64,000 nt of DNA from Phytomonas francai. Lineage: Eukaryota; Euglenozoa; Kinetoplastea; Trypanosomatida; Trypanosomatidae. Both the position numbers and the translations under genes were made by a program. The notes under the pieces are model-generated. The model saw nothing but the letters and a program-made list of their open reading frames with translations. It was not told where the DNA came from and did not search any database. This document shows positions 18,156 through 47,367 of this stretch, piece after piece. The stretch lies in the NCBI GenBank assembly GCA_001766655.1, contig MJCC01000008.1, positions 368,131 through 432,130 on the forward strand, given 5' to 3'. Numbering within the stretch: the first letter of the stretch is position 1; each line of letters starts with the position of its first letter.

Positions 18156-18578
18156 GTAACTTTTATTGCTTCTTTTTTAATATTGTGTATCAATTTATTA
18201 GCCTTGAGAAGACTATATTTTTACCCAGTCACTATAAGGAAATATTAATAATAATTTGCTAGTGAATAAAAATCTTCAACGGAGAACAGGGAATTAATTA
18301 CTTTCTTATGAATTAGTTTCCTCTCATCCTCCTTAGCGACCACGCAATTTCGAATTATCTGGACAAGTAAATCTGTAAATGAACATTATCAAAATTAGCA
18401 TTATTTTTGTGTCTGTGTGGTTTGGGAACTAAATAATTATATTTATTTACTTATGTTTAGTTCTCAGATCCTAGCAGTGCAACCTTCCCTTCTTTTATCC
18501 ATTTTTTTTTTTGTTAACGTTTTTCTAAATAATATCAAAAAGGGTGTTTTACACAACCCCAAAGGTAGACAAAAAATT
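18156..18578. other. Intergenic region
   Basis: Very AT-rich spacer of 423 bases. The open frame that runs upstream of the kinase through this DNA contains its pyrimidine tract and is not credited as coding. Confidence 0.5.
18482..18542 (+). promoter_or_regulatory. Polypyrimidine tract and AG, trans-splice acceptor
   Basis: T/C-rich run (18482-18515) with the next AG at 18541-18542, 37 bases before ATG 18579. It decides the start of the kinase gene, because the longer in-frame N-terminus would have to be translated from upstream of the acceptor. Confidence 0.55.
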
Positions 18579-21500
18579 ATGAATACAATAGAACATGAAC
18601 AAAATACACGTGCTTCTCTTCCAACTTCGATGCGTATGCAACGTGATTTGTCATCAAGTCCCATATCGCGTCTTGGAAGCACGGTGAAAACTATGCATAT
18701 TCAGAAATGCATCGTTAAACATGAGGACGATGAGCACCCTCTAGAGCACATGTCCGTTACTTTTGAGGCGGACAACTTGACGGTTGTAACGAGCGTTCTG
18801 CTTGGAAAAGGTGGTTTTGGGAAGGTTTTTTTAGCTTGTTCAAATGGTGGGGAGTCGTATGCACTTAAGGTTTCGTCAAAAAGAATGAATGAAAATGATT
18901 GGAGACGACTTACTGAAGAGGTAACATTGATGAGCCACTTTTCAAGGCATCCAAATATTGTTAAGTTTTATGCAGCAGGCCGTGATAGAGACAGAGCGTA
19001 TGTCCTGATGGAGCGATGTGCAAGTCGATCAGTACACGATATTATTGCTTTCAGTAGTCTTGACATACAAGAAATACTTTGGATTGGCCATTCTTTGGTG
19101 ACTACAGTGGCATACATACATTCAAAAATGTGTATCCATAGAGACCTGAAACCGCAAAACCTTCTCTTTGATTTTGATGGAAACTTGAAAATTACAGACT
19201 TTGGTCTCTCAAGCCGAATTTCCGAGGCTCAGCCTCGTAAAACCGTTGCTGGGACAGCCATGTACATGGCTCCAGAGATGGCTGAGGAGGTTTATAAACG
19301 AATGACCAAAAACAGAAGCTTGCAGTCCCTGAGCTATGGTGATGAAATAGATACGTGGAGCATTGGTGTAGTTCTGTATGTTCTTCTGACTCGGATGAAT
19401 CCGTATTTAACCACGATGGAGGAAAGAGGTGTGCAGCTGCTGGATAGGTCGGAAAAATCGCTCGCCCTGTTCAACGCTGTCGCGGACGCCGCGTGGAGCT
19501 GGCCGAAAGGTTGGAGTGGGGATTCTCAGTTATGTGACTTGGTGGAGCGAATCTTGATGCGGGATCGAGGTCGGCGTTCCACCCTGCAAGAAGTGTGTGA
19601 AGACCCGGTTTGGAATAGAAGCCCGGTAACATGTCCGCTTTCGCTGTTGCAAAAGCTTGACATGCTTGAGCCGCCCATGAGTCCGCTTAGCCACTTTGGC
19701 GGAAATATTTCTTCTGGGCCAAAAAAGACATTTGCTGCTGTAATTAATAAGGGATCAAAGGAGATCGAGGCTGCTGAAAGGCGCCATCGTTCGCAGCTGC
19801 AACTCGAGTATTATGAGACGTTTAACATATTACTCGGCATACTAGCTTTGTCACGAAAAGAAATCGACGGGCGGTTTTTCATCGGAAGAAGTGAAGAGAC
19901 AGAGCGTGCTAAACTTCGGAATCAGTTATGGAAGTGGCGGCAAGGTAGTAGACGTGCTGGTAGTGTCTCCTTAGTCTCGGACACGCCCACTCACCAGGCA
20001 GTTGGGTTGCGACGTACGCGATCCGTGCGACGCAGCGTTGAGCTATCGGATAGCATCCCTATTGATCAGGGGGAGATCGTTCGGGCGAGTCCTGACCAGT
20101 ACGCCATGGTCTATCCTGGTCGCAACACAGCAACGCGGTGGAGTCTCCGTTCAGTTGTATCGCTTCCTCGAGAGCTAAACGAAACGATTGAGCAAGAATT
20201 TCAGTGTATGAATAGGCATGTTATGACAAAGCTTACTTCAATGCCTCACGGATACAATGGCTTCGATTGCAACGTCTGCGACACCGGTATTTTAAAAATC
20301 ACAGGCGAAAGGCCCGCGTTCAGGTGCTACAAATGTGATTACGATGTTTGTATGAAGTGCGCTTATTCTGGAAAGTTCAAGGATGTCAATTTTGTTTGCC
20401 TGACATGTGGGAAAAAATTTACTTCGTCTTCTAAGCTCCACTCCCATTCATTGATGTGTCGTGGCCCCAGCATGAGTCCCTCTCCGCGCCGATCTTCACG
20501 AATGAACACACTTGTCTGGGATGAAGTAAAGCGTCCTAGTTTGCTAGATGTACAGCTTCCTGACGAGGATGAGCTAGATACACGTAAAGGTCGAGGCTCA
20601 GGGCGAAAAACGTACGCACGAACCTCGACAGGGGGCCGGATTAGTATCGGTAATCCGGAGGTCCAAGGTCCTGAGGACATGGGTACATTGGTTGCGAAGC
20701 ATTGTGATGCAGAGTTTCCGCAAATTAGTACGCGCGCGTCTACGACTGAGCTGCGCTCGACGACCCTAAAACACCACCGGAGGAACAGCTCTAATAGCTT
20801 CAGTGACAATTCGTTGGAATCACGGTCAGAAATCTCCACTCCTAATCGCATCCGCACAGCGAAGACTAAACGGCAGGACAGCTTAGATGGGTTCCAGAAG
20901 CTCTTCATGGGACCTGAAGGTGAGGAGAATTCGCTGTCAAAGCGCCGGCATGTGGAGCCTGACTTGGGTGAAGTCGTCGCCCCGGAGTATAATGAAAATG
21001 GCATGATCGTCGGAATAGCGGCGCGGCGACGGGCTGAAAGTATCGGCGCGGTGCCCATCACCGGCTCAGGGGTCGTTACCATTCGCGTCGACACCGCGGA
21101 CAAGCCTCAGGAGATCATTAGGCAAACCAAGGTTCCGCGTAGCGCGTCCTCGTCGAATGCGCGCGCGATTAGCAGACCGGGGCCGCCCCAAGAGTCCGAG
21201 CCCATTCGGGCGGGGTTTCCCGCCCCGCCGGCGGCCCCACCCGCGGCGTCCCTCCCGCGGATCCCGGCCCGCCGCGCCGGGTCCGTCAGCGGGCATACCG
21301 TCAACGGGGGCCCGCCGCTGCCCCGCCGCGGCCCCGCGGCCCCGCCGAGCCTCAACGCCGTTCGGCCCGCCCCCGGCTCGCTCGCGAGCGCGATGGCCAC
21401 GCCGCCGCTCCCTCGCGAGATCGACAAATCACTGCTCGCGCCGATGAACGCCGACATGGCGTACGTGGCGCTCCCGCAGAAGGAAAGGGTTCGCCAGCAA

Positions 21501-22166
21501 TTCGTGGACGACTTTTTGAGGGGTGGCTGGGTCCGCTTCTATTCCTTTACGCAGGAGGATACTGTTGTGATGTATTATTGTTTACAGCCGGGCCGGTATG
21601 GCGCCATCTTCCCTACCGAAGCCGGGGTAGGGACGGCCGTGTTAGATATCTTTTCCAAATTAGTGCTTTACGTCCCATGCATGAACAACGAGAGCACGAA
21701 TCGAAATCAACCACACCCACACGTGCAGACTTTCTACGACGAGGAGGTGCGCATACTGTCCCTTGCCGAAGCGCAGCGGTACCTGGGAAGCGTACTCCGG
21801 TGCATTACCGGCTTCATTGACGAGATCACTCGCCTGAAGGCAGAGGGCCTCACGCCCGCGGCGGTTCACTCGGCGTACATTCACCAACGCAACTTGGAGG
21901 CGGTCCCGCGCGACACGAAGTTTGTGTACATTCGGAAAGTCTTTCCGGACCCGTGTGGGACGTTTACGCTTTTCCGCCTATCCAATTTACGTTCCCAGGT
22001 TGTCTGCAACGCGATGCTCGACATCCGCTGGCAGAGCGATCGGCGACACCATGTCGGGCAGAAGTACTACGTGCATGCTGATGGGACCACAGAGCCATTT
22101 GTGGTTGACAACACCGGTGTTCTTTCACAGGTTGAGGAGGTGCTGAATAATAATTATAGAAGATAG
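18579..22166 (+). CDS. Protein kinase with zinc fingers and C-terminal polo-box-like region
   Basis: A 1,195-residue Ser/Thr kinase. The kinase domain spans about residues 60-360: Gly loop LGKGGFGKVFLA, YALKVSS lysine, IHRDLKPQN (Asp189), TDFGLSS (Asp207) and MYMAPEM; all catalytic residues are kept. A Cys-rich region follows (about 547-627), with CNVC, CYKC and CMKC pairs of a C1/DC1-like finger and then a C-x2-C-x12-H-x3-C finger. A long Ser/Arg/Pro-rich linker (GC-rich after base 21150) leads to a C-terminal region (about 970-1195) that resembles two polo boxes. GWVRFYSF, FSKLVLY and a long helix match box 1; KFVYIRKVF and FRLSNLRSQVVCNAMLDIRW match box 2. Polo boxes dock phosphopeptides and localise PLK kinases to basal bodies and related structures. 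The start is chosen after the splice acceptor. The kinase call is firm; the polo-box call is by eye. Confidence 0.85.
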   Translation: MNTIEHEQNTRASLPTSMRMQRDLSSSPISRLGSTVKTMHIQKCIVKHEDDEHPLEHMSVTFEADNLTVVTSVLLGKGGFGKVFLACSNGGESYALKVSSKRMNENDWRRLTEEVTLMSHFSRHPNIVKFYAAGRDRDRAYVLMERCASRSVHDIIAFSSLDIQEILWIGHSLVTTVAYIHSKMCIHRDLKPQNLLFDFDGNLKITDFGLSSRISEAQPRKTVAGTAMYMAPEMAEEVYKRMTKNRSLQSLSYGDEIDTWSIGVVLYVLLTRMNPYLTTMEERGVQLLDRSEKSLALFNAVADAAWSWPKGWSGDSQLCDLVERILMRDRGRRSTLQEVCEDPVWNRSPVTCPLSLLQKLDMLEPPMSPLSHFGGNISSGPKKTFAAVINKGSKEIEAAERRHRSQLQLEYYETFNILLGILALSRKEIDGRFFIGRSEETERAKLRNQLWKWRQGSRRAGSVSLVSDTPTHQAVGLRRTRSVRRSVELSDSIPIDQGEIVRASPDQYAMVYPGRNTATRWSLRSVVSLPRELNETIEQEFQCMNRHVMTKLTSMPHGYNGFDCNVCDTGILKITGERPAFRCYKCDYDVCMKCAYSGKFKDVNFVCLTCGKKFTSSSKLHSHSLMCRGPSMSPSPRRSSRMNTLVWDEVKRPSLLDVQLPDEDELDTRKGRGSGRKTYARTSTGGRISIGNPEVQGPEDMGTLVAKHCDAEFPQISTRASTTELRSTTLKHHRRNSSNSFSDNSLESRSEISTPNRIRTAKTKRQDSLDGFQKLFMGPEGEENSLSKRRHVEPDLGEVVAPEYNENGMIVGIAARRRAESIGAVPITGSGVVTIRVDTADKPQEIIRQTKVPRSASSSNARAISRPGPPQESEPIRAGFPAPPAAPPAASLPRIPARRAGSVSGHTVNGGPPLPRRGPAAPPSLNAVRPAPGSLASAMATPPLPREIDKSLLAPMNADMAYVALPQKERVRQQFVDDFLRGGWVRFYSFTQEDTVVMYYCLQPGRYGAIFPTEAGVGTAVLDIFSKLVLYVPCMNNESTNRNQPHPHVQTFYDEEVRILSLAEAQRYLGSVLRCITGFIDEITRLKAEGLTPAAVHSAYIHQRNLEAVPRDTKFVYIRKVFPDPCGTFTLFRLSNLRSQVVCNAMLDIRWQSDRRHHVGQKYYVHADGTTEPFVVDNTGVLSQVEEVLNNNYRR

Positions 22167-33984: not shown

Positions 33985-35415
33985 ATGCAATCAAATGATG
34001 AGAATAAGGACATGGCTTTGCTAAAACACTACACAAAATACTTTCCGCATGTGTTGTTTACTAGAAGGGAAGACATGGATGCGTTCATCAGCACCTTAGA
34101 CCCGAAGACGGTTTTAAATCAAGTGGAGGACGGTGAGGACCAGCCGGAGTCGTCGGATCCACGGGAGCACATGTACATTTTGAAGAATCTCATCGGGCGT
34201 AATCCGACGACCTCGGCCTTTGTCGCTGTTCGCGGCTCGAATCTGAGTGAAAAGGTCGTCGCCAAATTTGTGATGCTGAGCGATGAAAAGCAGACCTCCT
34301 ACGCCCGGAGCGAGCTCCATTGCCTCGCCGCCTGCAATCATTTCGGCATCGTCAAGCACTACGACGACTTTAAATCGGAGGATAAGGTGCTGCTGATCAT
34401 GGAGTACGGCAGCGGCGGGGATCTGAACAAGCAAATCAAGCAGCGCCTTCGCGAGCGACTGCCCTTCAAGGAGCACGAGGTCGGGCTTCTTTTTTACCAG
34501 ATCGTTCTCGCGATCGACGAGGTGCACAGCCGGCGTATGATGCACCGCGACCTCAAGAGCGCGAACATCTTTTTGATGCCGACCGGCATCATCAAACTCG
34601 GCGACTTTGGCTTCTCGAAGCAGTACAACGACTCGGTCTCGCTCGACGTGGGGTCCTCGTTCTGCGGGACGCCGTACTACCTCGCGCCGGAGCTCTGGGA
34701 GTGCAAGCGGTACAGCAAGAAGGCGGATATGTGGTCTCTCGGGGTCATTTTGTACGAGCTCCTGACCCTCCACCGGCCCTTCAAGGGGCCCTCGCAGCGC
34801 GAGATCATGGACCAGGTCCTGCGGGAGCGCTACGACCCCTTCCCCTGCGCGGTCTCGAAGGGGATGCAGACCCTGCTCGACGCCCTGCTCTCGAAGGAGC
34901 CGGCCGAGCGGCCGACGACGCGGCAGCTCCTGCAGACGGACTTTATGAAGTACGTCGCGAACCTCTTCGAGGAGATCGTGACCAACTCGAGCGTGATCCG
35001 GGCCGAGGACCAGAAGGAGATCCTCCGGCAGCTCGCGGCGAGCAGCCGAAAGATCGCCGGCCACCAGTCCCTGCGGCCGAGCAGCTTCAGCAGCATCGGC
35101 TCCCAGGTCGTCCACGAGGGCTACCTCTTCAAGTACAGCTCCGACTTCAAGTGGAAGAAGCGCTACTTTATGATCCAGAATAACATGCTCCAGATCTCGA
35201 TCACGGATAAACCGGAGATGGACTCCGTCCCGCCGAAATCGACGGGGCTGGAGGCCGTCATCGATGCGTTTCCCGTCCCCGAGGCGTACTGCCGCTCGCA
35301 CCCGAATCAGCTCGTTATTTGGTTTAGTAATGGCCAGAAGATTATCGCCATGGCAAACTCACCCGAGGAACGCGATACGTGGCTGTTGAAAATTCAGTTG
35401 GCATGTGGAATGTGA
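33985..35415 (+). CDS. NEK-family protein kinase with C-terminal PH domain
   Basis: A 476-residue kinase. The catalytic domain spans about residues 60-330, with VVAKFVML (ATP lysine), MMHRDLKSANIFL (Asp189), GDFGFSK (Asp207), FCGTPYYLAPELWE and DMWSLGVILYEL. These match the NIMA-related (NEK) family. The glycine loop is IGRNPTTSAFVA and lacks two of the three usual glycines, yet the rest of the active site is complete. Residues about 376-476 form a PH domain (HEGYLFKYSSDFKWKKRYFMI, ending in the tryptophan helix EERDTWLLKIQL). NEK plus PH is the arrangement of the kinetoplastid NRKA/NRKB-type kinases, which act in flagellar or basal-body and differentiation processes. The coding sequence is strongly GC-biased in its middle. 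Family identity is firm; the exact orthologue is not decided. Confidence 0.93.
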   Translation: MQSNDENKDMALLKHYTKYFPHVLFTRREDMDAFISTLDPKTVLNQVEDGEDQPESSDPREHMYILKNLIGRNPTTSAFVAVRGSNLSEKVVAKFVMLSDEKQTSYARSELHCLAACNHFGIVKHYDDFKSEDKVLLIMEYGSGGDLNKQIKQRLRERLPFKEHEVGLLFYQIVLAIDEVHSRRMMHRDLKSANIFLMPTGIIKLGDFGFSKQYNDSVSLDVGSSFCGTPYYLAPELWECKRYSKKADMWSLGVILYELLTLHRPFKGPSQREIMDQVLRERYDPFPCAVSKGMQTLLDALLSKEPAERPTTRQLLQTDFMKYVANLFEEIVTNSSVIRAEDQKEILRQLAASSRKIAGHQSLRPSSFSSIGSQVVHEGYLFKYSSDFKWKKRYFMIQNNMLQISITDKPEMDSVPPKSTGLEAVIDAFPVPEAYCRSHPNQLVIWFSNGQKIIAMANSPEERDTWLLKIQLACGM

Positions 35416-36485: not shown

Positions 36486-39400
36486 ATGCAGGAAGTTGCT
36501 TTACCGCCTCAAGAGACAGGGACCTATTGCCTCTCGAGATTGGAGGGCTTCACTGGAGTCGGAGAAGGTGCAGATGCTGCTGCGCAAGAACCACCACCAC
36601 ACACCAGCCATGAGGGACCGAGGATGAAATTGCGGCTTAGGGATCTCCAGCGTCGTAGCGCCGAAGAGAACAAAGCCGTTTCTCTCCTGAAAAATGGTTC
36701 TACAAACTGCACCGCGATGCTTGCTGCCTGCCATACACTTCTGAGAGGAGAAGGCAGGCCTAGAAAGCGTCCAATGTCAACGAACAGCCCTGCTAACGCT
36801 ATTGTCGAGCAGGACGCCTCGCAGGCGTGCCCAGGAGGTTCCTTCGCCGCAGATTCGTCGGCTTACGCCGCTCCATCCTTTTCCGAGGTTCCCTCATCGA
36901 GTTCGAAGGGGCGGCGCCTTTTTCGAGGATCGTCGACGCGTCTTTGGTCGAATCTGCCCGGGGTGAACAGCAGAGTCAACACGCCGGAAGGGTCCGCCGA
37001 GCTCGTGCATCCTTTGGTTGCACTCCAAATTCTGGGGAGTGTCGATTTCAACGAGGCCTTTCTGGATTCCTTATTGCCTCATTTGGTTCTGCATCGATCC
37101 CTCCGAGCGGGTGGGGGGCCTCAAGAGGCCTTTGGAGGGCCGCGCTGTCGGGATTTACCCCCTCGCGAGCCGGAAAACTTGCCTTCGGAATCTCTTCCTG
37201 TGCGCGTTGAGCACGTCGAGGACGCCATTTTCCACGTTCGCGTCGACCCCTCCCAGCCTTCGCCGATTCAACCCCTCCTGGAGGCGTGGAAAGGCAGCCT
37301 CGCGGGCGATATCGATGGGCTGGAGTTCTTCCTAACACCTTTAGTCGACGAGGGGCTGCCCGCTATACGGGCACTTCAAACGCCGTCCACATCGTCGAGG
37401 ACATCGATGGCCAGATCGCGGGATGGCGAGCGGAACCTGAACCGTTTGGCGGAGGACGGCGGCCTCTCGCAAAGCTTCTCGGCATCCAACTCCCTCCCTC
37501 CACTCGACGGCCCGATTATCTTTCGCGGCACCCCGGCGACGTGGATTCTGAACTTTCGCGGAAAACGCGAGGCCGAGCGGGAGTTTCGCGAGGCCGGGGG
37601 GCTGACAAGGACCGCCTCTTTCTCTTTTGCAGGGTTTGAAGGCTCAAACGTGGCGTGTTTGCGAAAGTATTGCACGGCGACGGCGCTGTATTTCGCCTTG
37701 ATACGCGCCGGCGTATGCGCGGGCGAGGGGTTCCCCTTCCTCGCCGTCCAGCGAATGACCTGGGGCGATTTACTCGCCGGGGGCGAGGTTCAGGCGCAGC
37801 TCCGGCGGCTGGCCGAGGATCGCCAGGACGGGCTCGCGCGCGCGATGCTCGGGAAGCTGCGGGAGTCGCCGGGGGAGCAGATCCCCGTCGCCGTGACCCT
37901 CCCCGCACCGCTCAAAGGGCGCGTGCGCGCGCTCCCCGTCGTCGCCCGCCGCGCCGGGGGCTCCTTTCGCGGAGCCCGCCCTCCTCTTTTTTATCTTTCT
38001 TCTTCTTTTTCGCCGTCTTTCACGTTGAGCTCGCACGAGCCCTTCACGGACGCCGAGGTCTTCCAGCTCTTCTACCTCCAACTCGTCCTGCGCGCCCTCT
38101 TCGACGTTCGGCTGCCCTCTCCCGCGGGGCTGCGGCCGGACCGGCTGTGGGCGCGCGCGCAGGCCGCGCGGGGCCTCGCCTTCGCCGATCCCGACGACGC
38201 CGCCGCCTGGATCCTCTTCCCGCCGCGCTCGCGCACGCTCGGGGTCGTCGACCTCGCGCGCGCGACCCTCCCGGCCTACGCGGGGGAGCTCAAGGAGACT
38301 AAAAAAGGGGGAAATAACGAAAATAAAAACGACGACGAAGAGGAGGAGGAGGAGGGAATGCCGCTTTTCGGCGCCTGCGCGGGGACGCGCTGCCTGACGC
38401 GGCTGGGCTACGCCGCTGTGGGGTGGGCGGCGGGGCTGCGGATCACCTCCCCGCGCGCGGCGGCGGCGGCCCTCCGCGGCCTTTTCGCGCACTTCCGCGC
38501 GGCCTACGGCGGGCCTCGAGGGGGGGGCGATCCGCGGCCGCGCGTCTTCGACTGCTCCGCGCGCGCGCTCGCGCGGATGCGGGCGGCGAACGCGCCGCTG
38601 GCGGGGTTTTTCGTCGGCGTGGCCCCCCCCCCGCCGGCGGGCCGGGGCCTGCGCGCGCGCTGCCGCCGATACGCGCGGACGGCCGAAATTTCGCTCTTCG
38701 ACGGCTCGACGGCGGCGATTCGGCTGCGCGGGCGCCTCGGGCGGGGGGGGAGCAGCGTCGTCTTCCGCGGGGTCTACGGCCAGCGGGAGGCCGCGGTCGC
38801 CGTGAAGGTCTTCGTGGTCCCGGCGGGCCGCTCGCACGCGGACTACGTCCGGGACTCCCTCGCCGACGTCTTCTTCGGCGCCCTGATGAACCTCTGCGAG
38901 GAGCACCACGTCATGAAGACCTGCAGGATGCACGACTTCGTCGTGAGCGCAACCCCGCCCGACGGGCTCGCCGCCGACGATCTACGCGAGCTCCACGGCG
39001 GCGCCGAGGTTCCCCCGGTGAAGCTCTGCTATCTCGTGATGAATCTCATGGACGGCACCCTGGGCCGCTTCCTCAACGAAAACGACCCCGGCTACGATCC
39101 CCTGTACGATACCCTGGAGAACAGCCCTCTGCGGCCCGGCGAGCTCTTCCAGCTCCTCTACGCCCAGCTCGCGATGAAGTACCTCTTCGACTGGAAGGTG
39201 CTCGACATGATGCTGAACGGCCAGCTCCGCGGCGATAACATCGGCTTTCGCTATCTTTCCTCGCCGGGGGAAAGGACGTCGTTGGCGTCGTCCGGGGGGA
39301 AAAAAACGAGGCGGTCCTATCGGGGCATCCTCGTCGTTTATCAAGAGACGCCGCAGGCCGCGATTCGCTACCTGCGCTTTCCCGCCGAGGATTCCGACGG

Positions 39401-39848
39401 GGCCTCGCGGCCGCTTCGGTTTATTTTCTTTTTAGACCTCGCGCAGGGCACCCAGCCGGAGGTGAATCGACTCGTGGAAAAAGGGCGCATCGGCGAGTGC
39501 GTGTTGAGTTCGTGCGTGGAGGAGGACGGCTTTGGGCGCTATTGGCCCCCGCACGAGCTCTATTGCCGCTACCTCGACGTGAGCGGGGTCGCCGACGAGG
39601 TCGTCGCCTGGGGGAGCCGTCTGCGCATCCATTCCAAGAACGACGCGCGCGAGGCGCTCCATCAGCTTTTCGAGCTTTATTACCCCCAATACAGGGTCGA
39701 AAACCCCGCGGAGGAGATCTGGCAAACGCACGCGGTCTACGAGTGGAAGGCGGAGGTGGTTTCGAAATTGAGCGCGTCGAACGTTTTCCTTCCAGGCGAT
39801 TCGGGCTTCCCCGATGACGCGTGTGCGATGGAAGGGTTGTCGTGCTAG
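36486..39848 (+). CDS. Tandem degenerate kinase-like (pseudokinase) protein
   Basis: A 1,120-residue protein with a disordered Ser/Pro-rich N-terminus (about 1-170). The C-terminal part (about 740-1110) reads as a protein-kinase fold: LRGRLGRGGSSVVFRG (Gly loop), VAVKVFVV (lysine near 772), hinge YLVMNLMDGTL, GELFQLLYAQLAMKYLFDW (helix E), NGQLRGDNIGF (911-921) and FFLDLAQG (Asp984). In the HRD-equivalent loop the catalytic Asp position is Gln913. An earlier region (about 350-690) repeats the same order: GPIIFRGTPATWILNF, AEVFQLFYLQLVLRALFDV, AGLRPDRLW (catalytic Asp replaced, Asn replaced), GVVDLARAT and VGWAAGLRITS, the last matching VAWGSRLRIHS in the second copy. An acidic poly-Glu insert (about 604-625) lies in the first copy. 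Both domains should be catalytically dead or highly altered. The gene is extremely GC-rich after base 37640. Confidence 0.75.
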   Translation: MQEVALPPQETGTYCLSRLEGFTGVGEGADAAAQEPPPHTSHEGPRMKLRLRDLQRRSAEENKAVSLLKNGSTNCTAMLAACHTLLRGEGRPRKRPMSTNSPANAIVEQDASQACPGGSFAADSSAYAAPSFSEVPSSSSKGRRLFRGSSTRLWSNLPGVNSRVNTPEGSAELVHPLVALQILGSVDFNEAFLDSLLPHLVLHRSLRAGGGPQEAFGGPRCRDLPPREPENLPSESLPVRVEHVEDAIFHVRVDPSQPSPIQPLLEAWKGSLAGDIDGLEFFLTPLVDEGLPAIRALQTPSTSSRTSMARSRDGERNLNRLAEDGGLSQSFSASNSLPPLDGPIIFRGTPATWILNFRGKREAEREFREAGGLTRTASFSFAGFEGSNVACLRKYCTATALYFALIRAGVCAGEGFPFLAVQRMTWGDLLAGGEVQAQLRRLAEDRQDGLARAMLGKLRESPGEQIPVAVTLPAPLKGRVRALPVVARRAGGSFRGARPPLFYLSSSFSPSFTLSSHEPFTDAEVFQLFYLQLVLRALFDVRLPSPAGLRPDRLWARAQAARGLAFADPDDAAAWILFPPRSRTLGVVDLARATLPAYAGELKETKKGGNNENKNDDEEEEEEGMPLFGACAGTRCLTRLGYAAVGWAAGLRITSPRAAAAALRGLFAHFRAAYGGPRGGGDPRPRVFDCSARALARMRAANAPLAGFFVGVAPPPPAGRGLRARCRRYARTAEISLFDGSTAAIRLRGRLGRGGSSVVFRGVYGQREAAVAVKVFVVPAGRSHADYVRDSLADVFFGALMNLCEEHHVMKTCRMHDFVVSATPPDGLAADDLRELHGGAEVPPVKLCYLVMNLMDGTLGRFLNENDPGYDPLYDTLENSPLRPGELFQLLYAQLAMKYLFDWKVLDMMLNGQLRGDNIGFRYLSSPGERTSLASSGGKKTRRSYRGILVVYQETPQAAIRYLRFPAEDSDGASRPLRFIFFLDLAQGTQPEVNRLVEKGRIGECVLSSCVEEDGFGRYWPPHELYCRYLDVSGVADEVVAWGSRLRIHSKNDAREALHQLFELYYPQYRVENPAEEIWQTHAVYEWKAEVVSKLSASNVFLPGDSGFPDDACAMEGLSC

Positions 39849-42219: not shown

Positions 42220-44373
42220 ATGCTCTTGATTAGCTGGAACGTGGCGGGCTGGTCGTCCACTGTGCGAGCGATTCGAGAGAGCTACGGAAGCGTGGCGCGT
42301 TTTTTTCACTTGACGGGGGCTGATATTATCTGTTTGCAGGAATGCAAAGGATCGTGGGAGAAGCTCCAGGCGAAGCCAATTGAAATGGGTGCCGAGGATC
42401 CCCCTGTCTCGAAGCGTTGCCTTCCAAAAGGTGCCCCTCCCCCCCTCCCAAACTCTTCTATTTCATATCCCGAGGTGGAGGATCGTAGTGCAGGGGTTAT
42501 GGGAGAGAATATGCAGGATTGGGAATCTTTTTGGTCCTTTAGTGACAAGGTTCACAAAGGTTTTAACGGTGTAGTTACTTTTGTGCGAAAAGGCCTCACT
42601 CTCGCCTGCGATGCGCGGCCTTTTGACAAGGATGATTTGAACGATGAGGGTCGGGTAGTAGTAACCTATCACAGCGCCTTTGTTCTCTTTAACGTCTACG
42701 TTCCCAACGCCAGAGGAAGTGTGCGAAGTGAGTACAAGAAATACTTTTTGAATTCGCTTGTTTCTTTGATGGATCGCGTCCGAAAGGCGACGAAAAAGCC
42801 TTTGATTTTGATGGGGGATTTAAACATGACGTATCGCGCGGAAGACGCTGCCTGGACACTACGCCGTCTTGATGTCGGCAAAATGGTGGAATTAAATCGT
42901 CAATGTAGGGCGCTCACAGATGAAACATGGGAGCGAAGCTATCCCTATCTTTCAAAGCTAGCGCTTTCTCGCCTGACCTCTTCTGTAGTCTATCTGCTTT
43001 GGCTCCGCGCCCTAGAGATGTTGAACACGTCAGACTCTTCCTCATCCTCTCCTTTGCAGAAAATTGACGATAAAAATGTATCTAGTGCAGTAAGCGTTGA
43101 CAGAGAATCCAGAAAAAACTCTTCTCAAAGCTCTATTCAAACTAGTGTCGTTTCGGTGGATTCCCGTATCCGTGATGAGTACGACAGGGGAGCTTCTGAG
43201 ATTCAGAAGGAGCTTCAAATTGAGAAGCTAAAAAAACTTCGTCTGGTGTCGACACAGTCAAATTCCTCAAAGAAGGAACTCCTGTGCACGACCTCTTCAT
43301 CACAACCGAGCGTACGGAGTTCCCTTGAATCAACGAATCCATCTATTACCCTTGAGGAGCTTTACAAGGCTGGCTTTTCCAGCGTCTTTGTCGATGAAAT
43401 CGCCACCAACGCCAACACCAGCGGCTCACAAAACCGAGATTTATACGCACTAACGAGGTATTGCGGTTTGCCTCCCCAGGATGACGAATACATCGCGCTC
43501 TTCTGCAGGCTTTTGCATCATCCCTACGCGCAAAATAGTACTTCAGCAGAGGGTAATTTCACCACTGCGATGTATGATACCTTTACGATTTCACAAGTGG
43601 AAGGCTGCCGCGCGGAGTTTTCTTCATTTGCGTACTGCCCTTGTCCATTCACTTGCTGGGATCAATCACGGAACCGGCGGCAGATAAACGAGGGAACTCG
43701 GCTAGATTACATCCTCGTTGACGCCGAGCTCGCACCATATGTGACCCCTCCCACGGGAAGCGAAAACAACCTATTCAATCACAACCACAATACAAATCAA
43801 AACGATTATCGTATCCCTACTGGCCCTTCCCATTTGCGTTACGACGACGAGGAGGAGTTTTTCAGCGAGTTTAGTGGAAGGGCCCGCGCACAGGGGATTT
43901 GTCGAGCGAGGGCGGATGGGTTATACCCACCCGCCGCCTTCGATCGCTCCGGAATTCCGCCGCTCAGCCGAAACGCGCTGGATATTCCCTTCCGCGGACT
44001 CCCCTCTACGGGGTTATTTCTCACCCCGCCTCAATTCAGCGATCATATCGGGGTGTGCGCGCACTTTCGCCCTTGCATCATCTTAGAACCACATAGGGAA
44101 AAGATCTCGGGATCTGTCAAATGCCTGTATCGACCTCCTGTTAGTTTGCGCTCGTTTATTATGAAGCCGCCGCCTCCAAAGTCGGCACCAGCCACGCATA
44201 TAGTTGAAAAAGCAGCAGACCTCACAAGGAACGGCGGGCAGAATTCTAAATTAGTTAGTGAAGAAAAAGTAACCGTTTCACCAAAGAAGAAGAGCCAGAA
44301 GGTTGAAGTAGGTAATGGATCGACCGAGATTATCGACTTAGACAATGTATCTGGTCCAGAAAAGGCTGCATGA
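42220..44373 (+). CDS. Exonuclease III-family AP endonuclease (APE2-like)
   Basis: A 717-residue endonuclease/exonuclease/phosphatase-fold enzyme of base excision repair, cutting 5' to abasic sites with Mg2+. The domain starts at the initiator: LLISWNVAGW, then IICLQECK (Glu41 metal ligand), FNGVVTFVRKG, VLFNVYVPNA, LILMGDLNMTYR (Asp200, Asn202), LDYILVD (about 495) and FSDHIGV (Asp608, His609). All expected catalytic residues are present. Two inserts split the fold: residues 50-100, and a Ser-rich, charged stretch (about 265-400) between DLN and LDYIL. The size and inserts fit APE2 better than the smaller APE1/ExoIII type. No zf-GRF finger is visible at the C-terminus, which instead is Lys/Ser-rich (SPKKKSQKVE) and could act as a nuclear signal. 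Confidence 0.88.
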   Translation: MLLISWNVAGWSSTVRAIRESYGSVARFFHLTGADIICLQECKGSWEKLQAKPIEMGAEDPPVSKRCLPKGAPPPLPNSSISYPEVEDRSAGVMGENMQDWESFWSFSDKVHKGFNGVVTFVRKGLTLACDARPFDKDDLNDEGRVVVTYHSAFVLFNVYVPNARGSVRSEYKKYFLNSLVSLMDRVRKATKKPLILMGDLNMTYRAEDAAWTLRRLDVGKMVELNRQCRALTDETWERSYPYLSKLALSRLTSSVVYLLWLRALEMLNTSDSSSSSPLQKIDDKNVSSAVSVDRESRKNSSQSSIQTSVVSVDSRIRDEYDRGASEIQKELQIEKLKKLRLVSTQSNSSKKELLCTTSSSQPSVRSSLESTNPSITLEELYKAGFSSVFVDEIATNANTSGSQNRDLYALTRYCGLPPQDDEYIALFCRLLHHPYAQNSTSAEGNFTTAMYDTFTISQVEGCRAEFSSFAYCPCPFTCWDQSRNRRQINEGTRLDYILVDAELAPYVTPPTGSENNLFNHNHNTNQNDYRIPTGPSHLRYDDEEEFFSEFSGRARAQGICRARADGLYPPAAFDRSGIPPLSRNALDIPFRGLPSTGLFLTPPQFSDHIGVCAHFRPCIILEPHREKISGSVKCLYRPPVSLRSFIMKPPPPKSAPATHIVEKAADLTRNGGQNSKLVSEEKVTVSPKKKSQKVEVGNGSTEIIDLDNVSGPEKAA

Positions 44374-44739: not shown

Positions 44740-47367
44740 ATGTTAGAGCGTGCGAATGTTGCTACAGTGCGGGCGAAGGAGTTCCTCGCCAATACCGGTA
44801 GTGTTCTTTCCAAGGCGCAATCCCTCGTCTCCGGTGATTCCCAAATCTTCGCCGTTGCCCCCAAGAGCAGTGAGATTCGCCAAGCGCTTTGTTCTAACTC
44901 CGTCTATGACAAAATGTACGGAATGAAGGTGATTACCGCGCAAATCTGCAAAGGCTCTGATATGCAGTCTTTCTTTACCGATGTGGTGAAGAACATTCAC
45001 GAGCCCTCAATGGAGCTTCGGAAGTTGATCTACATGTTTGTTGTGCACTATGCTCATGTCTGCCCGAACGAGGCGCTTCTTTCTATTTCAGCGTTCCAGA
45101 AAGATCTGACGGATGCGAATATACATGTACGCGCACTCGCATTACGCATGCTTTGCTCAATTAGCATTCCCACCATTCACCCTGTCGTGATGGTTGCGCT
45201 GAGGAAATGCGCGAAAGATCAGGCGCCCATTGTTCGCAAGGCCGCCGCGATTGGCCTCCTAAAGGCGCACACAATCTGCAAAACGAATGTTCAGACGGAT
45301 AGCATCTACCAGGTTTTGCAGGACCTCCTAGGAGACCGCAACCCCGATGTGATCGGGACGGCTGTTATGGTCTTCCAAAGGATCGCGCCGGATCGCGAGG
45401 ATCTGCTGCACCCCGTCTTTCGAAAGATCTGCCGGGAGCTGCCGAACTGCGAGGAGTGGGCGCAGGAGGCGATCCTGCGCGTGTTGCTGCGCTACGCGCG
45501 ACGTCAGTTTTGCGACCCCGCGCTGCCGCCCGCGGCGGCGTCCGCGTCCTCGTCCGCGTCCTCGTCCTCGTCGCTGGGTCTGGCGTTTCCTAGGGCGGGC
45601 GGCGCGGCGGCGGGCATGAGCCCCGACCACGAGCTCCTCCTCCGCGCCGCGCGCGCGCTCCTGACGAGCCTGAGCGCGGCCGTCGTCGTGGCCGCCAGCG
45701 CAGTCCTCCTGCACTGCGGGCCGCCCGACGCGCTCGACGACGCGGCGGCCCCGCTGGTCCGCGTCTACCGCCACGCGGCGGCCGGCCGCGCCGCCCTGCT
45801 GGGCGTCCTCGACGTCCTCGCGCGGCGCCGCCCGGCGGCCCTCGCGCCGTACCTCGCCGAGTTCTTTCTGCTCCCGACCGACGGCGCGGAGGCGGGGTGG
45901 GCGAAGCACCGGCTGCTCGCCCGCCTCGTGCGCGGCCCCACCCTCGCCGCCGTCGAGGCCGAGTACGCCGCGTACCTCCGCGCCCCGCAGCCCCGCGCGG
46001 TCACCGCCGCCGTCCGCGGCCTCGCCGGCGTCTGCCGCCACCACCCCGCCCTCGCCCCGCGCGGGATGCGACGGCTGCTCCGCCTGCTCCTCCGCCAGGC
46101 GGCCCCGGGGCTCACGGGCGGTGCCACCGCCGCAGGGGCTGTGACAACAGGAGGAAGTGGCACCGCCGCAGGGGCTGTGACAACAGGAGGAAGTGGCACC
46201 GCCGCAGGGGCTGTGACAACAGGGCGCGGTGGGACAGGGGCCGCGAAGGGGGTGGCCGCGGAGGAGGCGGAGACGACGGCGGCGGCCGTCGGGGTGCTGC
46301 GGCTGCTGATCGCGGGGCAGGGGAAGCCGGGCGGGGATCGCGTGGAGGGCGCGCGGGTGGTGTTTCGCCTCCTGCGCGATACCATGCGCGGCGCGATCAC
46401 GCAGCCGACCGCGCTCGCCACGGTGCTTTGGCTGGTCGGGGAGAGCCTTCCCTACCACGTCGCGATGGCGGCCGCCGCGCCGGATTGCTTTCGGGTGTTT
46501 GTGCGAAAATTCATCTCCCTCAAGCCGAACGTGAAGGAGGAGGTGCTGCGGTTGGGGTGTAAGGTCTGGTTGCATCTCGAGGGCAAAGGGGCGCTGGTGG
46601 AGCGGTTTAGGAAGATCTTCACCTTTGCGTTGGAGCTCGCGAAGTATGATGACTACTACGTCATCCGGGACCACGCACGGATGCTCGAGTGCGCTCTGGA
46701 GCGCGAAAGCGACGCGTTCAAGGCGCTTAAGACGACGCTTCTGAGCGAAAAGAGCCCTCCAGTGGTGAACGAACCGCATCCCAAGTGTTCTGGCTATGAG
46801 CTCGGTACCTTTTCACAGCTCTGGGGGCATCCCGTCGGGGCCTACGAGGAGCTCCCTGCGTGGCGGGTGGAGCCCCCGGACGATACGCTCCGGATTCCCC
46901 CAGAGGAAGCCGCTTTGGAGTCCAAATTTGAGAAAGAGGACGACAACCTCGCGAGCCACTCTCTCTCCCTTGATTTTTACGATGACTCCAGCGAAATGGA
47001 GAGCAGTGATGACGACTCGGACGCAAGCAGCAGTGGTAGTGCATCGGGGAGTAACGAATCCAGCACGGAGGCGTCTGAAATGTCTGAAGAAATGGAAAGC
47101 GACTCCCTACTCTCCAACTCCTGGCGTCAGGGCTTACGGGTTCGCCCAGCTCCAATTTTAAATACTAGGCCAGCTCCAGCGGCAGGAGGGAAAATTATCG
47201 TGAGATTTAACAAAAGCGTCTACCCAGAGGCAACACCTTCGACAATGAAATCGCCGACAGAGGTCGCACCACCGATTTCCTCAACCCCGACAGCGCTCTG
47301 TGATGCTCCTAACCAGACCGAGGCCGCGCGTACGGAATCCTATGAAGAAGATGGAGGCCAAGCCTGA
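44740..47367 (+). CDS. AP-3 complex subunit beta (adaptin)
   Basis: An 875-residue large adaptin. The ATG at 44740 (MLERANVATVRAKEF) is chosen because the upstream in-frame part runs through a TA microsatellite. The trunk is an armadillo/HEAT solenoid: SNSVYDKMYGMKVITAQICKG, then IRKLIYMFVVHYA-type and DANIHVRALALRMLCSISIP repeats, then APIVRKAAAIGLLKAH, features of beta adaptins. The C-terminal hinge is strikingly acidic and Ser-rich (DSSEMESSDDDSDASSSGSA region, about residues 745-790), the hallmark of AP-3 beta. AP-3 carries cargo from endosome or Golgi to lysosome-related organelles (acidocalcisomes in trypanosomatids). An Ala/Gly-rich, very GC-rich insert (about 265-295 and 455-515) interrupts the trunk and holds a three-copy minisatellite. 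No ear domain is evident after the hinge. Confidence 0.88.
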   Translation: MLERANVATVRAKEFLANTGSVLSKAQSLVSGDSQIFAVAPKSSEIRQALCSNSVYDKMYGMKVITAQICKGSDMQSFFTDVVKNIHEPSMELRKLIYMFVVHYAHVCPNEALLSISAFQKDLTDANIHVRALALRMLCSISIPTIHPVVMVALRKCAKDQAPIVRKAAAIGLLKAHTICKTNVQTDSIYQVLQDLLGDRNPDVIGTAVMVFQRIAPDREDLLHPVFRKICRELPNCEEWAQEAILRVLLRYARRQFCDPALPPAAASASSSASSSSSLGLAFPRAGGAAAGMSPDHELLLRAARALLTSLSAAVVVAASAVLLHCGPPDALDDAAAPLVRVYRHAAAGRAALLGVLDVLARRRPAALAPYLAEFFLLPTDGAEAGWAKHRLLARLVRGPTLAAVEAEYAAYLRAPQPRAVTAAVRGLAGVCRHHPALAPRGMRRLLRLLLRQAAPGLTGGATAAGAVTTGGSGTAAGAVTTGGSGTAAGAVTTGRGGTGAAKGVAAEEAETTAAAVGVLRLLIAGQGKPGGDRVEGARVVFRLLRDTMRGAITQPTALATVLWLVGESLPYHVAMAAAAPDCFRVFVRKFISLKPNVKEEVLRLGCKVWLHLEGKGALVERFRKIFTFALELAKYDDYYVIRDHARMLECALERESDAFKALKTTLLSEKSPPVVNEPHPKCSGYELGTFSQLWGHPVGAYEELPAWRVEPPDDTLRIPPEEAALESKFEKEDDNLASHSLSLDFYDDSSEMESSDDDSDASSSGSASGSNESSTEASEMSEEMESDSLLSNSWRQGLRVRPAPILNTRPAPAAGGKIIVRFNKSVYPEATPSTMKSPTEVAPPISSTPTALCDAPNQTEAARTESYEEDGGQA
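46121..46228 (+). repeat. 36-bp minisatellite, three copies, in frame
   Basis: Units 46121-46156, 46157-46192 and 46193-46228 encode variants of GTAAGAVTTGGS (12 residues). Copies 1 and 2 are almost identical. It sits in a low-complexity Ala/Gly insert of the adaptin trunk. Confidence 0.95.

Follow-up and report, generated by a model that had tools for sequence, protein, structure and literature searches.

A tandem pseudokinase conserved across trypanosomatids with a haspin-like predicted fold

Introduction

Haspin (GSG2; PDB 2wb8, 6g35 and others), a cell-division kinase, is catalytically active and has a single kinase domain, in which HRD and DYT motifs are found. The structural marks given for it in the relevant passages of PMC3513839 are a helix between β4 and β5, an activation segment that lacks APE, a C-lobe enlarged by a two-strand sheet and the loss of helix G. 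One kinome comparison lists Leishmania major, Giardia and Trichomonas as lacking Haspin (PMC3218828), and the premise of work on the chromosomal passenger complex of trypanosomes is that kinetoplastids have no Haspin pathway (PMC10987093); the haspin passages of these two papers and of PMC4280135 are those considered here. Among the titles and abstract openings listed from the open-licence literature there is no published kinetoplastid haspin-like protein, a scope that does not establish absence from print. A precedent for an overlooked mitotic kinase relative is KKT14, a Bub1-like, divergent kinetoplastid pseudokinase whose fold ties it to a mitotic kinase thought to be absent from the group (passages of PMC11286163).

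Two other systems bear on the protein described here. The JAK kinases join a dead domain and a live one (JH2-JH1) in one chain. Selenoprotein O (SelO) and the NiRAN domain both lack the catalytic Asp of kinases, and the passages on them in PMC9492545 place an Asp directly before the metal-binding Asn (Asp208-Asn209 in NiRAN).

The gene and its relatives

The 64-kb window, that is, the whole stretch of Phytomonas francai DNA that was analysed, contains an ORF with the following parts.

36486..39848, forward strand: whole gene, an ORF of 1120 amino acids
36486..37469, forward strand: N-terminal third, residues 1-328, with conserved residues around 239-285
37650..38513, forward strand: domain 1, degenerate and haspin-like in the predicted model, about residues 389-676, without nucleotide-site residues
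38649..39776, forward strand: domain 2, predicted haspin-like kinase fold, about residues 722-1097

With the protein as query, the only match in the P. francai genome (17.4 Mb, 37 contigs) was the gene itself, which is thus present as a single copy. Three protein searches (13, 20 and 18 matches, two of them confined to the best 7991 and best 7994 candidates) yielded at least 28 distinct relatives, and the tandem pseudokinase-like protein is conserved across trypanosomatids. Twenty of the 28 come from Phytomonas sp. EM1, eight Leishmania species, Porcisia hertigi, two Leptomonas and eight Trypanosoma proteins (cruzi, cruzi marinkellei, rangeli, conorhini, grayi, brucei gambiense and vivax). In a tree of domain 2 the P. 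francai and Phytomonas EM1 proteins, 61% identical, form a pair with support 100/100, and two long-branched relatives, P0024 and P0029, fall outside all the others and are perhaps from free-living kinetoplastids. Residue counts given below refer to the 29-row alignment of the P. francai protein and its 28 relatives.

The original prediction of a protein outside any named kinetoplastid family agrees with the database searches. The Pfam kinase profile PF00069 scored 10.4 bits, below its cut-off of 31.7, and a match to it at E≤10 was listed for only one of the 29 members. NCBIfam gave no match among the four proteins tried. No PDB entry was matched by the single sequence, and the matches of the family profile were weak, the best (E 0.0023) lying over the Gly loop. 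Matches to Pyridox_ox_2 (0.0012), VLPT, McpB_HAMP_1st, GCS2 and Rib_recp_KP_reg, each in one of the 29 members at E≤10, were put down to chance.

Domain 2: a probable nucleotide site with Gln in place of the catalytic Asp

The predicted model of domain 2 has the two-lobe kinase fold, as had been anticipated, and the elements of its nucleotide site are placed as follows.

38739..38762, forward strand: Gly-rich loop GRGGSSVV (Gly754, Gly755, Ser756 and Val759 each 29/29; Gly752 28/29)
38805..38807, forward strand: Lys774, the lysine of VAVK (29/29)
39216..39245, forward strand: pseudo-catalytic loop NGQLRGDNIG (Gln913, Arg915, Gly916, Asp917, Asn918 and Gly920 each 29/29)
39435..39443, forward strand: metal-site motif DLA (Asp984 29/29)

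The Gly loop, the lysine and the Asp of the metal motif that had been read from the single sequence are retained throughout the family, and the position of the catalytic Asp, already described as changed to Gln, is Gln913 without exception. The second residue after Asp984 is Gly in 27 sequences (DxG) and Ala in two, and the Gln987 and Gly988 that follow are invariant. Six of the ten catalytic-loop positions are invariant as compared with 44 of the 382 in the whole of domain 2 (Fisher P 2.5e-4), and the site is therefore under constraint.

From these residues, domain 2 has probably kept the ability to bind a nucleotide and a metal, with the Gly loop, Lys774, Asn918 and Asp984 forming the site. 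Normal phosphorylation would have been lost because Gln913 replaces the catalytic Asp, and the protein is, with good confidence, predicted to be dead in phosphotransfer. The complete conservation of the Gly-loop residues, Lys774, Asn918 and Asp984 would also suit a protein kinase that has diverged yet is still active, with Gln913 or Asp917 standing in for the missing Asp. This is considered very unlikely, given the fixation of Gln at the position of the base and the variability of the αC acid: the residue aligned to the Glu of haspin is Asp in 20 sequences, Asn in eight and Ser in one, and four residues before it Glu is found in 26, Asp in two and Gly in one.

A different chemistry in which Asp917 serves as the base, for example the NMP transfer proposed for SelO and NiRAN, would account for the loss of the catalytic Asp together with an Asp beside the metal Asn, the arrangement of NiRAN Asp208-Asn209 and of SelO in the passages cited (PMC9492545), and for the invariance of Gln, Arg, Gly, Asp and Asn in the QxRGDN loop just described. 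SelO was missing among the 50 structural matches listed in each of two rankings, which does not exclude it. A further objection to NMP transfer comes from domain 1.

Internal duplication and domain 1

When the 29-row alignment was split into halves and the halves were compared by hhalign, they matched with a probability of 99.3% (P 5e-20, 167 columns), as opposed to a best P of 0.076 in 20 column shuffles and of 0.75 with a reversed profile. The C-lobes alone gave P 5.3e-22. Common to both halves are a helix (PFTDAEVFQLFYLQL in one, SPLRPGELFQLLYAQL in the other), the R-x-D of the catalytic loop, a [YW]xxFP strand, the metal-site strand and the closing helices, and the three pairs of motifs that had earlier been aligned by eye all fall in register in the profile alignment. 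Domain duplication, along with the kinase fold of domain 2, can be regarded as practically certain.

The N-lobes matched over only eight columns (P 0.011; score 20.0 versus a maximum of 17.6 in 40 shuffles), and these fall elsewhere than the VAV strand taken as β3 of domain 1. A complete kinase in domain 1 is thus unsupported. Residues V239, F281 and P285 of the N-terminal third (within 37200..37340, forward strand) are invariant in a 14-row alignment, and the region around residues 239-285 may supply the rest of the domain 1 N-lobe. Two landmarks of this domain are the following.

37881..37898, forward strand: VAV strand, β3 by eye (Lys 0/29)
38130..38144, forward strand: catalytic-loop equivalent LRPDR (Arg550 27/29, Asp552 27/29, metal Asn 0/29)

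Asp never occurs at the position aligned to the catalytic Asp (core 220), where Ala, Phe, Gly, Leu and others are found, and the metal Asp position holds Asp in two of the 29 sequences. An acidic low-complexity run at residues 610-623 (38313..38354, forward strand) lies in a domain 1 insert missing from the other 28 rows. The original prediction of a tandem pair of degenerate kinase-like domains, both without the catalytic Asp, thus holds across the family, and its analogy with JAK fails for the same reason: JAK likewise carries two kinase-fold domains in one chain, but one of them is active, so that a JAK-like pairing of a dead and a live domain is ruled out because the catalytic Asp is absent from both copies. 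The JH2 domain of TYK2 and the pseudokinase domain of JAK1 are among the 50 Foldseek matches listed.

Of the 29 first domains, 27 retain Asp552, although the Lys and the metal Asn are missing from all of them, and this also sets the protein apart from SelO and NiRAN, with which it shares the missing catalytic Asp (here Gln913) and the Asp adjoining the metal Asn (Asp917-Asn918, 29/29). Since this Asp persists in a domain emptied of its nucleotide site, a structural role for Asp917 is favoured, and the conservation pattern suggests that the Asp before the metal Asn (Asp552 and Asp917) is structural in both copies. An acidic residue before this Asn is, moreover, common in live kinases. On balance NMP transfer appears unlikely, and a phosphotransfer-dead domain 2 that would still bind nucleotide is preferred.

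Likeness to haspin

The two halves were modelled in separate jobs and compared with solved kinases by a second look at the matches that Foldseek itself had returned. Haspin occupied the first 12 places among the 50 matches listed, both for the core model and for domain 1; of the proposed comparison of separate models, the kinase fold was obtained for domain 2, and haspin ranked first for both halves. Two features of domain 2 correspond to marks of haspin (core numbering; 328 is to be added for the protein residue).

38973..38993, forward strand: β4-β5 helix, model residues 502-508, between strands 487-493 and 519-525
39324..39383, forward strand: inserted β-hairpin between the catalytic loop and the metal Asp, model strands 619-624 and 633-638

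The hairpin lies between strand 591-595, which follows the catalytic loop, and strand 650-654 at the metal site. The metal Asn and the metal Asp are spaced 59-95 residues apart in the 29 homologues versus 13-14 in 14 kinase fragments of the same genome, which come from 14 of 16 other loci sampled from 135 PF00069 matches. APE was found in none of the 29 sequences in the approximately 85 residues after the metal Asp. Thus, domain 2 has the β4-β5 helix and, in the model, the extra two-strand C-lobe sheet, lacks APE, and shares with haspin the kinase-type Gly loop, Lys, metal Asn and metal Asp; it differs in having Gln for the catalytic Asp, DxG instead of DYT, and a duplicated domain.

Sequence comparison shows no such preference. 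When set against the profile of domain 2, human haspin came 7th of 15 (P 3.3e-4; best control 6.6e-7), a comparison limited by the single-sequence target and spanning the Gly loop to αC only; against the domain 1 profile it ranked 6th of 15, with no row significant. Of the 14 controls, two (L007 and L011) gave an identical result and are probably one gene. The haspin C-lobe scored 10.0 with the domain 2 profile, as compared with 17.0-19.5 for the top six among 60 shuffles, and a resemblance to haspin seen by eye between the metal Asp and helix F, activation segment included, was set aside because this profile test failed to support it. Haspin was absent from the best 60 of 109 PDB matches of the family profile, and no match to the Pfam haspin family (PF12330) at E≤10 was listed for any of the 29 members. 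In the P. francai genome PF12330 has eight matches at E≤10, one of them just above the cut-off (26.7 versus 25 bits); seven lie inside PF00069 matches and the eighth has an E of 0.4.

The likeness to haspin was overlooked in the original prediction. In the predicted models the fold likeness is specific, and kinship is unproven because sequence comparison shows no haspin preference; from the fold, ancestry from haspin has somewhat better than an even chance. The missing sequence signal would be expected of a generic pair of divergent pseudokinases, a pure scaffold with haspin-like inserts acquired by chance and no haspin ancestry. Such an origin seems rather unlikely, with haspin ranked first for both separately modelled halves and several of its unusual features occurring together.

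Proposed function

The best explanation of the whole, held at about even odds, is a kinetoplastid tandem haspin-like pseudokinase that serves as a nucleotide-gated scaffold or allosteric regulator. A haspin-like kinase would have been duplicated in the ancestor of the family to give the tandem pair. Domain 1 would be the emptier copy, which kept its C-lobe frame and serves as a fixed partner or docking surface, and the pair would most likely act on another protein, in keeping with the scaffold role. By analogy with KKT14, likewise a divergent kinetoplastid pseudokinase with a fold link to a supposedly absent mitotic kinase, a mitotic role would be the first candidate. More speculatively, the protein could be the missing kinetoplastid haspin itself, duplicated, with the base lost from both copies, and now a nucleotide-bound chromatin or mitotic adaptor or a non-kinase enzyme using Asp917.

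The lineage concerned is one reported to lack the Haspin-H3T3ph pathway, and a conserved haspin-shaped pseudokinase would alter the picture of haspin-less kinetoplastids, as KKT14 did for Bub1. The fixed change of Asp to Gln in a nucleotide site that is otherwise intact also makes this protein a clean test case for nucleotide binding or other chemistry by pseudokinases.

Neighbouring genes

An ORF of 1237 amino acids at 18453..22166 (forward strand) begins with a protein kinase domain, is rich in Cys in its middle part (Pfam C1_2, below cut-off) and is a candidate for the kinetochore kinase KKT2; the tandem pseudokinase gene lies about 14 kb downstream of it. From the distance to the likely KKT2 gene, the place of the tandem pseudokinase gene in L. 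mexicana may be 36.54 or 36.55. Neither string occurs in the main text of a kinome study of L. mexicana (PMC7902614). The large ORF immediately upstream of the tandem pseudokinase gene (33985..35415, forward strand) codes for a protein kinase that carries a PH domain at its C-terminus (Pfam) and is NEK-like by eye. Further along are an ORF of the endonuclease/exonuclease/phosphatase family at 42220..44373 and, next after it, an adaptin-like ORF at 44740..47367 (both by Pfam and on the forward strand).
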